Below, one piece after another: positions 15,346 to 37,351 of a stretch of DNA of 37,365 nt (within the stretch, counting starts at the first letter, position 1; each line of letters starts with the position of its first letter). Below the pieces are notes generated by a model. The model was not told where the DNA came from and did not search any database. It saw nothing but the letters and a program-made list of their open reading frames with translations. Position numbers and translations under genes: made by a program. The DNA comes from Stenotrophomonas sp. 278 (GTDB taxonomy: Bacteria > Pseudomonadota > Gammaproteobacteria > Xanthomonadales > Xanthomonadaceae): NCBI RefSeq assembly GCF_003935715.1, contig NZ_RHPP01000025.1, forward strand, positions 1-37,365, in the 5' to 3' direction.

Positions 15346-17235
15346 ATGAACGCCCGCTATAACGCCGCCGATATTGAAGTCCTGTCCGGCCTGGACCCGG
15401 TCAAGCGCCGTCCCGGCATGTACACCGACACCGCGCGCCCGAACCATCTGGCCCAGGAAGTCATCGACAACGCCGTCGACGAAGCCCTGGCCGGGCACGC
15501 CCACACCATCGAAGTCACCCTGTACAAGGATGGCAGCTGCGAGGTCAGCGACGATGGCCGCGGCATGCCGGTGGACATCCACCCGGAAGAGAAGATTCCG
15601 GGCGTGGAACTGATCCTGACCCGCCTGCACGCGGGCGGCAAGTTCAGCAACAAGAACTACACCTTCTCCGGCGGTCTGCACGGCGTGGGCGTGAGCGTGG
15701 TGAACGCGCTGTCCACCCTGGTGGAAGTGCACATCAAGCGCGAAGGCAACGAACACCGCATCACCTTCCGCAACGGCGACCGCGCCACCCCGCTGGAAGT
15801 GGTGGGCAGCGTGGGCAAGAAGAACACCGGTACCCGTGTGCGCTTCTGGGCCGACCCGAAGTACTTCGACACCCCCAAATACAACCTGCGGGCGCTGCGC
15901 CATCTGCTGCGCGCCAAGGCGGTGCTGTGCCCGGGCCTGACCGTGAAGCTGCATGACGAAGCCACGGGCGAACAGGACAGCTGGTACTTCGAGGACGGCC
16001 TGAGCGACTACCTGAAGGCCGAGCTGGGCGAGCGCGAGATGCTGCCGGCGAACCTGTTCGTGGGTTCGCTGAAGAAGGACACCGAAGTGGTGGACTGGGC
16101 GGTGGCCTGGTTGCCGGACGGTGAGCTGGTGCAGGAAAGCTACGTCAACCTGATTCCCACCGCGCAGCACGGCACCCACGCCAACGGCCTGCGTACCGGC
16201 CTGACCGAAGCGCTGCGCGAGTTCTGCGACTTCCGCAACCTGCTGCCACGCGGCGTGAAGCTGGCCCCGGAAGACGTCTGGGACCGGGTCTCGTTCGTGC
16301 TGTCACTGAAGATGACCGACCCGCAGTTCAGCGGCCAGACCAAGGAGCGGCTGTCCTCGCGTCAGGCGGCAGGCTTCGTGGAAGGTGCCGCGCATGACGC
16401 CTTCAGTCTGCTGCTGAACCAGAACGTGGCGCTGGGCGAGCAGATCGCGCAGCTGGCGATCGAGCGCGCGAGTGCGCGCCTGAAGACCGAAAAGCTGGTG
16501 GTCCGCAAGAAGATCACCCAGGGCCCTGCCCTGCCCGGCAAGCTGGCGGACTGCATCAGCCAGGACCTGTCGCGCACGGAGCTGTTCCTGGTGGAAGGCG
16601 ACTCGGCGGGCGGCAGTGCCAAGCAGGCGCGCGACAAGGACTTCCAGGCGATCATGCCGCTGCGCGGCAAGATCCTGAACACCTGGGAAGTGGCCTCGGG
16701 CAGCGTGCTGGCGTCGGAAGAAGTGCACAACCTGGCCATTGCAATCGGTTGCGACCCGGGCAAAGACGACATCAGCGGGCTGCGTTACGGCAAGGTGGTG
16801 ATCCTGGCCGACGCGGACTCGGACGGCCTGCACATCGCAACGCTGCTGACGGCGCTGTTCCTGAAGCACTTCCCGGCACTGGTGGCCGCGGGCCACGTGT
16901 TCGTGGCGATGCCGCCGCTGTTCCGCGTGGACGTGGGCAAGCAGGTGTTCTACGCGCTGGACGAAGAAGAAAAGCGTTCGCTGCTGGACAAGATCGAGCG
17001 CGAGAAGATCAAGGGCCAGGTCAGCGTGACCCGCTTCAAGGGTCTGGGCGAAATGAACCCGGAGCAGCTGCGCGAGTCGACCATCCACCCGGACACGCGC
17101 CGCCTGGTGCAGCTGACCGTGGACGACGACGAGCAGACCAGCGCACTGATGGACATGCTGCTGGCCAAGAAGCGCGCGGGCGACCGCAAGCAATGGCTCG
17201 AAAACAAGGGCGACCTGGCCTCGCTTGAGGTCTGA
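15346..17235 (+). CDS. parE: DNA topoisomerase IV subunit B
   Basis: ParE is the ATPase subunit of topoisomerase IV, which with ParC decatenates daughter chromosomes. The 629-residue protein has a GHKL ATPase domain with QEVIDNAVDEALAG (about 37-50), DDGRGMPV (69-76), the ATP lid GGLHGVGVSVVNAL (109-122) and QTKERL with the catalytic lysine K333. The TOPRIM domain carries EGDSAGG (417-423) and DADSDG (489-494). At 629 residues it is ParE-length, not GyrB-length, and lacks the GyrB insertion. It is followed 16 bp later by a strong terminator. parC is not in the window. Confidence 0.97.
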   Translation: MNARYNAADIEVLSGLDPVKRRPGMYTDTARPNHLAQEVIDNAVDEALAGHAHTIEVTLYKDGSCEVSDDGRGMPVDIHPEEKIPGVELILTRLHAGGKFSNKNYTFSGGLHGVGVSVVNALSTLVEVHIKREGNEHRITFRNGDRATPLEVVGSVGKKNTGTRVRFWADPKYFDTPKYNLRALRHLLRAKAVLCPGLTVKLHDEATGEQDSWYFEDGLSDYLKAELGEREMLPANLFVGSLKKDTEVVDWAVAWLPDGELVQESYVNLIPTAQHGTHANGLRTGLTEALREFCDFRNLLPRGVKLAPEDVWDRVSFVLSLKMTDPQFSGQTKERLSSRQAAGFVEGAAHDAFSLLLNQNVALGEQIAQLAIERASARLKTEKLVVRKKITQGPALPGKLADCISQDLSRTELFLVEGDSAGGSAKQARDKDFQAIMPLRGKILNTWEVASGSVLASEEVHNLAIAIGCDPGKDDISGLRYGKVVILADADSDGLHIATLLTALFLKHFPALVAAGHVFVAMPPLFRVDVGKQVFYALDEEEKRSLLDKIEREKIKGQVSVTRFKGLGEMNPEQLRESTIHPDTRRLVQLTVDDDEQTSALMDMLLAKKRAGDRKQWLENKGDLASLEV

Positions 17236-17245
17236 GTTCTTCGCG

Positions 17246-17272
17246 AAAAACCCCGCTTCGGCGGGGTTTTTT
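17246..17272 (+). terminator. intrinsic terminator after parE
   Basis: AAAAACCCCGC, a TTCG loop and GCGGGG followed by six T form a canonical terminator. The A-run on the left side means it could also act on the opposite strand. Confidence 0.93.
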
Positions 17273-17291
17273 GTTGCCTGCTTGATTGTCG

Positions 17292-17512
17292 TGTCGGCAT
17301 TCGACGCGCTGCGTGCCGCCGGGCTCTGCCCGGCTGCTGTTGGAATCGTGCGAAAAGCCGGTGTTCATCGGTTTCCGTGTTTGGGCGCACCGGGGTGGGT
17401 TTGCGGGACACGCCGTGAATCCATCCATGGAGGCTACTCGGACGCCATCCATGGCGCCGAGTGTCCCGCAAACCCACCCCGGCACGCCCCAGACAGATGG
17501 CCGGTGGCCACG
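17292..17512 (+). repeat. structured 221-bp intergenic element, copy B
   Basis: This non-coding segment starts with TGTCGGCATTCGAC and ends at CCGGTGGCCACGG. It contains a small hairpin GCCGGGCTCTGCCCGGC and then a very long one: 17390-17411 is perfectly complementary to 17461-17482 (22 bp). Inside the 49-base loop is a hairpin CGCCAT-CC-ATGGCG (17443-17456) and the sequence GTGAATCCATCCATGGAGGCT. A diverged copy of the same length lies inverted at 17650-17870. No protein-like frame is visible. Confidence 0.8.
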
Positions 17513-17622
17513 GAAGATCAAAAGCCATGACAGGCTCCGGTGGAATCGGAAATGCCCTGGCGGGATCGGTCGACAGACGATCGCCGTGAAATCCTCAACA
17601 ATCGGTGGCGCATGACCCCGGA

Positions 17623-17640
17623 TCAACGTTGCCGTTGATG
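17623..17640. repeat. small perfect hairpin between the two structured elements
   Basis: On the minus strand ATCAACG, a GCAA loop and CGTTGAT form a 7-bp stem capped by a GNRA tetraloop. It sits in the 137-bp spacer between the two 221-bp elements. Its role is unknown. Confidence 0.5.
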
Positions 17641-17649
17641 TGGCATTTC

Positions 17650-17870
17650 CCATGGCCACCGGCTCTCCTTCGATGGCGGATCGGGGTGGGCTGGAGGGGG
17701 CACGAGCCGCATGGATGCGGCGATGAGCTTACATGGACGTATTCACAGCGTCCCCCGGAACGCCCATCCCGAGCCGCCAACCCAGGGAAGCCGATGACCA
17801 CCGGCTGTTCGCCCAGATCCGTCAACAGCCGGGCAATGCCCGGCGAGACGTAAACCGTCGAATGCCGACA
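17650..17870 (-). repeat. structured 221-bp intergenic element, copy A (inverted)
   Basis: Read on the minus strand this element has the same layout as the copy at 17292-17512: TGTCGGCATTCGAC start, GCCGGGCATTGCCCGGC hairpin, a long stem (17681-17691 with 17762-17772, and 17697-17703 region with 17748-17756), the motif GTGAATACGTCCATGTAAGCT, an inner hairpin CCGCAT-CC-ATGCGG (17707-17720), and the end CCGGTGGCCATGG. Stem bases differ from the other copy but pairing is kept. Both copies are 221 bp. Confidence 0.78.
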
Positions 17871-17884
17871 ATCCCGCAGCCAAC

Positions 17885-17911
17885 AAAAAACCCGGCCGAA
17901 GCCGGGCTTTT
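17885..17911 (-). terminator. intrinsic terminator after pit (probably bidirectional)
   Basis: CCCGGC-CGAA-GCCGGG is flanked by six A on the left and CTTTT on the right. On the minus strand it ends in six T, 22 bases after the pit stop. Confidence 0.9.
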
Positions 17912-17933
17912 CGCATGGAGATTCAACAACCGA

Positions 17934-19055
17934 TCACGCCCAGCCGACCAGCTCGAACAGCTTGAGGATGAGGTAGGCGCAGCCGGCGGCGGCCGGGATG
18001 GTCAGAATCCAGGCCCAGATGATGCGTTCGATCACGCCGAAGCGCAGTGAGCGCGGGTTCTTGGCGTAACCCACGCCCATGATCGCCGTCGAAATGCTGT
18101 GCGTGGTCGACACCGGCATGCCGAAGTGCGCGGCCAGAGTCAGGATCGTCGCCGAGCTGGTTTCCGCGGCGAAACCGTGGATCGGGTGCAGCTTGACCAT
18201 CTTGTGGCCCAGGGTCTTGATGATCTTCCAGCCGCCCGAAGCGGTACCAGCCGCCATCACCACCGCACAGGTCAGCACGATCCACATCGCAATGCCTTCG
18301 CCTGCGCTCGCGTCCGGGTGCAGGAAGGCCAGCCACGTCGGCAGGTCGTCCAGCGCGCCGGTCGCTTCAGCGCCGATCAGCGTCATCGCGATGATGCCCA
18401 TGGTCTTCTGCGCGTCATTGTGGCCGTGCGCGAAGCCCATGTAGGCCGCCGAGACGATCTGCGCCTTGCCGAAGAACGCGTTGACGATGCGCGGGCGGGC
18501 CAGACGGCCCAGCCAGCCACCCACCTTGGCCATGCCCGCGATGATCGCCCACAGCAGCATCATTACCACGATGCCCAGCAGGAAGCCGGCGATCGGCGAG
18601 GTGATCATCGGCAGGAACACCTTCCACAACAGGCCCTTGTTCTGGGCCCAGGTGCCGATGCGCTCGGACCAGATCAGCGCGTCCCAGTTGTTGTGCGCCG
18701 CGGCCAGGCCGGCACCGCACAGGCCGCCGATCAGCGCGTGCGAGGACGAGGACGGCAGGCCCTTCCACCAGGTGATCAGGTTCCAGATGATGCCGCCCAG
18801 CAGCGCGCACAGGATCACCTGCGGGGTCACGTCGACCACGTTGGTGTTGAGCAGGCCCGAAGCGATGGTCAACGCCACCGCCGTGCCGGTGAGCGCGCCG
18901 ATGAGGTTCATGAAGGCGGCCAGCATTACCGCCCAGCCGGGCGAGAGCACTTTGGTCGCCACCACCGTGGCAATGGAGTTGGCAGTGTCGTGGAACCCGT
19001 TGATGAACTCGAAGACGAGCGCAGCCAGGATCACGACCAGAACGAGGGTCAGCAT
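17934..19055 (-). CDS. inorganic phosphate transporter, PiT family
   Basis: PiT proteins are inner-membrane symporters that take up phosphate, usually as a metal-phosphate complex with protons or as a cation symport. The 373-residue protein is very hydrophobic with about ten membrane segments and holds the two inverted family signatures: INGFHDTANSIATVV near residue 20 and GFAHGHNDAQKTMGIIAM near residue 215. The segment SSSHALIGGL is also characteristic. It follows the DUF47 gene by 12 bp, a very common pairing in which the PhoU-like protein modulates the transporter. A strong terminator follows. I give no gene symbol because pitA and pitB types cannot be separated here. Confidence 0.95.
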   Translation of the reverse strand: MLTLVLVVILAALVFEFINGFHDTANSIATVVATKVLSPGWAVMLAAFMNLIGALTGTAVALTIASGLLNTNVVDVTPQVILCALLGGIIWNLITWWKGLPSSSSHALIGGLCGAGLAAAHNNWDALIWSERIGTWAQNKGLLWKVFLPMITSPIAGFLLGIVVMMLLWAIIAGMAKVGGWLGRLARPRIVNAFFGKAQIVSAAYMGFAHGHNDAQKTMGIIAMTLIGAEATGALDDLPTWLAFLHPDASAGEGIAMWIVLTCAVVMAAGTASGGWKIIKTLGHKMVKLHPIHGFAAETSSATILTLAAHFGMPVSTTHSISTAIMGVGYAKNPRSLRFGVIERIIWAWILTIPAAAGCAYLILKLFELVGWA

Positions 19056-37173: not shown

Positions 37174-37204
37174 CTGCGACGCGGCATGCACACGCCGGGA
37201 ACCC

Positions 37205-37271
37205 GTAGAGCCGGGCTTGCCCGGCTTCCCAACGCGCGCGGGCTCCGTCAGCCGGGCAAGCCCGGCTCTAC
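37205..37271. repeat. SMAG (GTAG) pair in inverted orientation
   Basis: GTAGAGCCGGGCTTGCCCGGCTT and AGCCGGGCAAGCCCGGCTCTAC face each other around about 21 bases, able to fold into one long hairpin. The core differs from the copies at 5129 and 36409 but is like that at 10438. Confidence 0.88.
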
Positions 37272-37351
37272 AACAGCGATGCGCCGACTGAACCTGCCCC
37301 GCTGAAACGGACGCCAAGAAGCGATAATTTACTCGCACTTGGAGGTTCCCT

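Follow-up and report, generated by a model that had tools for sequence, protein, structure and literature searches.

A facing pair of structured elements between parE and pit of Stenotrophomonas sp. 278 and its probable place in a mobile repeat family related to YPAL/RU-2

The gap between parE and pit in the window analyzed here (the whole 37,365-nucleotide stretch of contig NZ_RHPP01000025.1 from Stenotrophomonas sp. 278) is filled by two diverged, inverted copies of one element, designated A (17292-17511, plus strand) and B (17650-17870, minus strand). As judged by sequence and covariance-model comparisons, A and B are copies of a putatively mobile, non-autonomous repeat family of Gammaproteobacteria, in the wider family of YPAL/RU-2. 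The initial annotation, made from the letters of the window alone, had offered two readings, an RNA family and a non-autonomous mobile element, and both are favored by the evidence: the mobile-element reading follows from the high copy number, the patchy and site-variable distribution, the intergenic location, and the lack of genes of its own, and the RNA-family reading follows from strong covariation and from G.U and G.A pairs that are specific to one strand. What that annotation could not see were the abundance of copies, the kinship with YPAL, the identity of the folding strand, and the GGA loops.

Copies A and B and the surrounding gap

The gap is bordered by parE (15346-17235, plus strand) and pit (17934-19055, minus strand), names taken from the initial annotation that fit the translations. 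An inverted-arm search identified arms at 17292-17399/17763-17870 (76% complementary) and 17465-17518/17645-17698 (70% complementary), and A (220 nt) aligned end to end with B (221 nt) at ∼72% identity, bearing out the earlier description of two facing, diverged copies. Both are full elements, made up in A of a head hairpin, a core, and a right end. Present as annotated are the ends common to both copies, the conserved GTGAAT..TCCATG..GCT, the inner hairpins CGCCAT-CC-ATGGCG and CCGCAT-CC-ATGCGG, and, in A, the perfect outer stem. The outer stem of B, annotated as about 10 of 11 pairs, is no clean helix, as a purine internal loop interrupts it. The sequence of the A head hairpin is GCCGGGC-TCT-GCCCGGC (17318-17334, plus strand). 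Among the 36 aligned full copies of the genus, 12 have GTAG ahead of this hairpin, A and B not being among them; we take the GTAG-tagged form to resemble a REP of the GTAG type, presumably the one labeled SMAG.

Beyond A and B, inverted similarity runs outward into two terminator-like hairpins (17243-17291/17866-17914, 88%). The first, with its T run, follows parE at 17245-17270 (plus strand) and was matched by the RsmY model at its terminator end (28.1 bits); its inverted counterpart follows pit at 17887-17912 (minus strand; 24.7 bits in the Rfam scan). A simple terminator scan of 17200-17960 listed neither hairpin, and a simple scan of the same interval gave no sigma-70-like promoter. Between the copies lies a spacer (17512-17649) from which both folding strands point away. 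At the gathering score, Rfam reported only a tRNA in the whole window and nothing at the parE-pit gap. The core model also matches weakly at a third place, near the right-hand end of the window (37203-37276, minus strand; 27.1 bits, E 1.1e-5), perhaps a decayed copy.

Fold, folding strand, and loops of the core

The core is a three-way junction with a ∼23-bp outer stem enclosing two hairpins. An alignment of 36 full copies comprises the head hairpin and the core, with core stems that change yet stay paired, and a core of ∼103 nt is conserved outside the own genome. The folding (GGA) strand of core A is the minus strand of 17386-17489, that of core B is the plus strand of 17674-17776, and the two scored 101.7 and 81.5 bits, respectively, with the covariance model R1, figures to be read with the presence of both among its 62 training sequences in mind. 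In core A, hairpin 2 (17436-17462, minus strand) carries the loop AUGGAU at 17447-17452, and hairpin 1 (17412-17434, minus strand) carries the loop AUGGAU at 17423-17428 and a conserved 5-nt bulge, UUCAC. In core B, the hairpin 2 loop is AUGGAU (17711-17716, plus strand) and the hairpin 1 loop, placed with the consensus structure, is AUGGAC (17733-17738, plus strand). Core B is of type II, a class that carries tandem G.A in hairpin 2, and has the purine internal loop in its outer stem. The predicted fold of core A reaches −79 kcal/mol (z −8.8). In each core, either strand outperformed all 200 of its shuffles in folding (z −4.0 to −8.8). When B is folded by itself, the minimum-energy structure keeps hairpin 2 and pairs the hairpin 1 region otherwise than in the consensus.

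Pairing was evaluated in alignment A2, where 90.9% of pair cells are standard and 37 of 39 pairs show double changes. The covariation score was 0.760, whereas shuffled controls gave 0.203 and slid partners no more than 0.171. Deriving the structure from this very alignment favors the score, but the gap to the controls is large. Of 163 candidate cores, 62 went into R1; roughly alternate entries of a list were taken and some then dropped by hand (among them L084 and L115, with a broken outer stem or hairpin), which makes the pairing figures somewhat favorable. The initial annotation had staked its claim of selection on pairing on covariation above background, and pair counting against the shuffled and slid controls upholds it.

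The mismatches within the stems reveal which strand folds. For outer stems of the wide set, which includes Stenotrophomonas and Xanthomonas loci and was scored symmetrically between G.T and A.C, the plus strand shows 124 A.C versus 32 G.T (p 5.5e-14; 58 versus 7 when loci are counted). Outer stems of the genus (44 of 94 unique cores) contain 43 A.C versus 2 G.T, or 27 versus 0 by core. Read on the GGA strand of a MAFFT alignment, the counts are 31 G.U versus 2 A.C in genus rows and 75 versus 34 in wide rows, the latter a weaker bias than the duplex method gives for the wide set. The GGA strand also favors A.G over C.U, by 49 to 21 in 41 wide rows of A2 and by 33 to 0 in 21 genus rows. Since the mismatches are G.U on the minus strand and A.C on the plus strand, folding, whether as RNA or as single-stranded DNA, belongs to each element's minus strand. 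The strand described in the initial annotation must accordingly be exchanged for its reverse complement. That a strand-specific fold is under selection we regard as almost certain.

Both hairpins display GGA. Among 121 full-length matches, GGA was found in the hairpin 2 loop of 118 and the hairpin 1 loop of 119; the count leans on R1, which was trained on such loops, and in pattern-found copies hairpin 1 is largely fixed by the search pattern. The exact motif C-A-N-GGA-N-G occurs in 83 of the 121 for loop 2 and 119 for loop 1, with the remaining loop 2 sequences differing in closing pair or loop length. These matches come from 98 sources, namely 80 of 120 pattern-found loci, with those of Stenotrophomonas and Xanthomonas largely set aside, and 18 of 30 loci from the model search; of the 131 rows obtained, the 10 with fewer than 85 letters were removed. 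Where R1 and not the pattern had located the loci (19 rows), GGA is present in 18 (loop 2) and 19 (loop 1). A count of 112 of 112 was discarded; the hairpin finder required TCC, and the result arose by construction. The GGA-GGA spacing is 22 to 28 nt in 60 of 61 measured cases, most commonly 23. Measured against the longer CsrA site consensus, C-A-N-GGA-N-G is of the CsrA/RsmA type. The core thus carries two GGA hairpin loops at a spacing suitable for a CsrA/RsmA sponge. CsrA dimers are described as binding GGA-loop hairpins, two per dimer (PMC7366521, PMC4333381).

The gene csrA was detected in all but one (33) of the 34 repeat-bearing class genomes. It is missing from 22 of 184 class genomes, and the repeat occurs in 1 of these 22 versus 33 of the 162 with csrA, an association that falls short of significance (Fisher one-sided p 0.056, 184 class genomes). 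Genome G230, assembled in 270 contigs, has 10 copies and no csrA above the cut-off. RsmU of Xanthomonas is described as an RNA that is released from a 3′ UTR by cleavage and sequesters RsmA (PMC7694677). A whole-word search of the available literature collection found no papers naming both YPAL and CsrA.

Copy number, relatives, and mobility

A DNA search returned 66 matching stretches in the own genome, many as facing pairs and some being opposite-strand echoes of a single copy owing to the palindromic core; matches were also found in 23 of 41 sampled genomes, 19 of them of the genus. With R1, the own genome contains at least 61 cores, a floor in that the repeat probably breaks the draft assembly. 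R1 matches were present in 31 of 41 genus genomes and absent from the other 10, with up to 97 candidates scored per genome, which makes any count close to 97 a minimum; in the complete genus genome G011, a more exhaustive search gave 125 cores. More widely, R1 matched 34 of 184 class genomes (32 of 164 genera) and 22 of 199 phylum genomes, all 22 of the same class, in searches of ∼20 to 97 candidates per genome under strict filters that make the copy numbers floors. The further copies in related genomes on which the initial annotation depended are therefore abundant. A 25-letter pattern for one hairpin occurs in at least 118 stretches of genome contigs. The matches listed include Marinobacter, Shewanella, Xanthomonas, Microbulbifer, Rheinheimera, Alteromonas, and others; we take the organisms named to be Gammaproteobacteria from general knowledge, and two of the matches listed carry only the label Proteobacteria.

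Several draft contigs of the own genome (G000 C68, C55, and C154) start inside element copies. Loci from other families of the order (L048, L049, and L051) come from genomes with few matches (2, 4, and 1, respectively) and have high model scores of 93.5 to 95 bits. The repeat does not look like a phage element: the 681-bp gap was unmatched in phage records, and only two stretches in IMG/VR carry the hairpin 1 pattern. In plasmid records, nothing beyond 43 bp on the terminator side of this gap was matched.

The closest described system is YPAL/RU-2, a mobile, intergenic palindromic sequence of Yersinia of about 168 bp, for which the RU-2 sequence is printed in PMC2759123 (Table 1b). The printed sequence has the same core on the same strand, with hairpins GCGCC-AAGGAT-GGCGC and TAC-ATGGAT-GTA together with TTTACGGCG. 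It was matched by the genus core HMM (E 3.9e-10 in a one-sequence search), and locus L198, which lies outside the R1 training set, is 98.2% identical to it and scores 69.5 bits with R1. Core sequence and fold thus both indicate homology. The available description places YPAL/RU-2 in Yersinia and Erwinia, with three matches in E. coli, whereas the elements found here span many gammaproteobacterial genera; they also differ in forming outward pairs and, in the own genome, in having a REP-like head and a unit of ∼220 bp with that head. We consider it very probable that the elements are a mobile repeat of the wider YPAL/RU-2 family.

Other known systems share some features. The TwoAYGGAY RNA (RF01731), proposed as a CsrA-binding RNA (PMC4333381), has a similar outer stem, two hairpins, AYGGAY loops, and tandem G.A in a stem; its description, as far as it is accessible, does not call it a repeat, in contrast to the element here. 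It shares an Rfam clan with RsmX and RsmY. The GGA strand of copy A scored 31.9 bits (E 0.005) against TwoAYGGAY, below the cut-off of 43 for membership, and MIR898, a microRNA model with no relation to it, reached a better E value (1e-4) over this stretch. TwoAYGGAY was not listed for 57 other loci scanned (E up to 0.5 in some, the cut-off in the rest). The GTAG REP/SMAG sequences with RAYT, which form REPIN-like dimers, are likewise intergenic, often 3′ of genes, and arranged as inverted dimers, but their units are 20 to 40 bp rather than ∼220 bp, and the element here has a core with conserved loops and a junction. A GTAG plus hairpin head, seen in one-third of the full genus copies as noted above, occurs in 5 of 127 wide-set copies, so the family as a whole does not qualify as a GTAG REP palindrome. 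The CsrB/RsmX/Y/Z sponge RNAs also carry several GGA hairpin loops on one RNA; the known ones are single genes with promoters and terminators, whereas the sites here lie two by two on dispersed repeats with no promoter seen. Ysr224, a Yersinia RNA in Rfam that shares the core, matches the plus strand of many copies, opposite to the GGA strand, with a best score of 39.9 bits versus a cut-off of 70. Matches to sRNA-Xcc1 (RF02221) adjoin but do not overlap the elements at L016 927-1026, L020 1341-1442, and L021 934-1028, and one of them is above the cut-off.

The copies are arranged in a characteristic manner. According to a crude gene finder, the 94 unique cores lie in 37 convergent, 35 codirectional, and 3 divergent gaps, with 4 in genes and 15 at contig ends. 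In G011, 88 of the 125 cores form 44 neighbor pairs, and the folding strands point outward in 43 of these; at wide-set loci, 28 of 39 neighbor pairs face each other in the plus-strand sense. By geometry alone, a transcript crossing such an outward pair from either side contains one GGA-displaying copy. Independent single 3′-UTR elements were rejected as the genus default on the basis of the 43 outward pairs. A recent inverted duplication was also rejected, as the partners of 35 pairs were no more alike than random ones (0.66 versus 0.655). Of the 34 typed pairs, orthologous ones included, 24 are hetero-type, which exceeds one half only mildly. Single copies in codirectional gaps of the wide set show no strand preference relative to the upstream gene (19 versus 19), leaving a fixed 3′-UTR role unsupported, and the 37 single copies of G011 show no replichore bias (22 of 37, p 0.32), with the origin assumed near position 1 given a gyrase match at 5.6 kb. 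In S. maltophilia-like genomes (L269, L271, L277, and L282), a perfect hairpin that starts GGGGTCAGATCCGTTTTCC is found repeatedly midway along the pair spacer, and at L284 (G055) the pair spacer is expanded, within a ∼1.1-kb gap that follows the left gene, by tandem copies of another palindrome-rich repeat.

Comparison of equivalent sites suggests movement. One orthologous gap, with both flanks present in 20 of 30 fetched loci, contains cores in 10 and none in the other 10; the core type there differs between genomes, and L276 holds only the terminator palindrome. Such filled and empty sites suggest mobility of the YPAL type, and loss by deletion would also fit. Of 26 fetched parE loci, core matches occur in two, the window's own and that of G014. 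No core follows parE in G002, which has a 98% identical ParE, and short GTAG dimers stand after parE instead in G001, G006, G008, and G009. Outer terminator palindromes flank both sides of the filled site in inverted rather than direct orientation, and dimers confuse a test for target duplications (3-26 bp).

The search for a mobilizing enzyme covered Y1 transposases. These occur in the genus, also in the repeat-free G004 and G007, and the repeat is absent from all 12 fetched Y1-transposase (RAYT-type) loci, 8 of them in the genus and including 1 of the own genome's 3. At L073 (826-4557, G000:C82), two elements in inverted orientation bracket 3.3 kb of DNA. The interior contains two ∼80% identical repeats, and inner inverted repeats continue inward of the elements; one ORF looks to us like a T4SS effector by its XVIPCD-like ending, with what we take for a lipoprotein-like ORF alongside. 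An autonomous copy was sought in these 3.3 kb, and reading of the ORF translations brought no evident transposase to light.

Possible roles of the folded strand

As the best reading, to which we give an even chance, the element would be a non-autonomous mobile repeat selected as a putative CsrA-binding RNA. Readthrough or an unseen promoter would transcribe the folding strand, which would act as RNA in the form of a three-way junction showing two GGA loops ∼23 nt apart, and one CsrA/RsmA dimer could clamp both loops. An outward pair would guarantee exactly one loop-displaying copy per transcript crossing the gap in either direction, and the 60 to 125 copies in genomes such as these could form a dispersed CsrA decoy or CsrA-responsive 3′ ends. 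More tentatively, each insertion may add decoy sites for one CsrA dimer, with outward pairs allowing the decoy to be read from whichever side transcription comes, such that the repeat tunes a global regulator by copy number or uses CsrA to maintain itself.

A single-stranded DNA fold could yield the identical strand asymmetry, and the main rival to the CsrA-binding reading is built on this point. The GGA strand would fold as single-stranded DNA for some transposase or recombinase, much as RAYT reads REP hairpins and IntI reads attC, and the loops would be enzyme contacts of no benefit to the cell. We treat this as a serious possibility, although one below even. Strand-specific folding suits it as well, as do the high copy number, the patchy spread, the presence or absence of cores at one site between related genomes, the single copies unlinked to transcription direction, the GTAG REP-like heads of 12 of 36 full copies, and the Y1 transposases of the genus. 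It is weakened by the 12 Y1 loci that lack the repeat, by the Y1 genes of G004 and G007, and by the unbiased replichore distribution of the 37 single copies in G011. Loop variation, in addition, falls on positions that CsrA sites leave free by their consensus.

Alternatively, the element might serve as a REP-like 3′ end whose long stem protects or terminates flanking mRNAs or acts on supercoiling, the loops being incidental. The preference for convergent gaps near stop codons (37 of the 94 unique cores) agrees with this role, which has been described for GTAG REPs (PMC3733652), and YPAL has been suggested to affect mRNA stability (PMC2229807). We consider it unlikely, as it leaves unexplained both the GGA loops kept in the two hairpins across genera and the selection for folding on one strand despite both orientations to genes. 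A plus-strand small RNA in the direction of the Yersinia Ysr224, with UCC loops pairing to Shine-Dalgarno sequences, is highly improbable, as the sub-cut-off Ysr224 matches to the plus strand of many copies are set against a wobble and purine-mismatch asymmetry that strongly favors the other strand.

The repeat described in Yersinia and its relatives is very probably one branch of a large gammaproteobacterial family in which structure is selected on one strand and two regulator-type loops are displayed. If the loops bind CsrA, post-transcriptional control would gain a layer that is inherited with dispersed "junk" repeats and depends on their copy number. Should the loops not bind CsrA, the strand asymmetry still provides a handle on how YPAL-like elements move.
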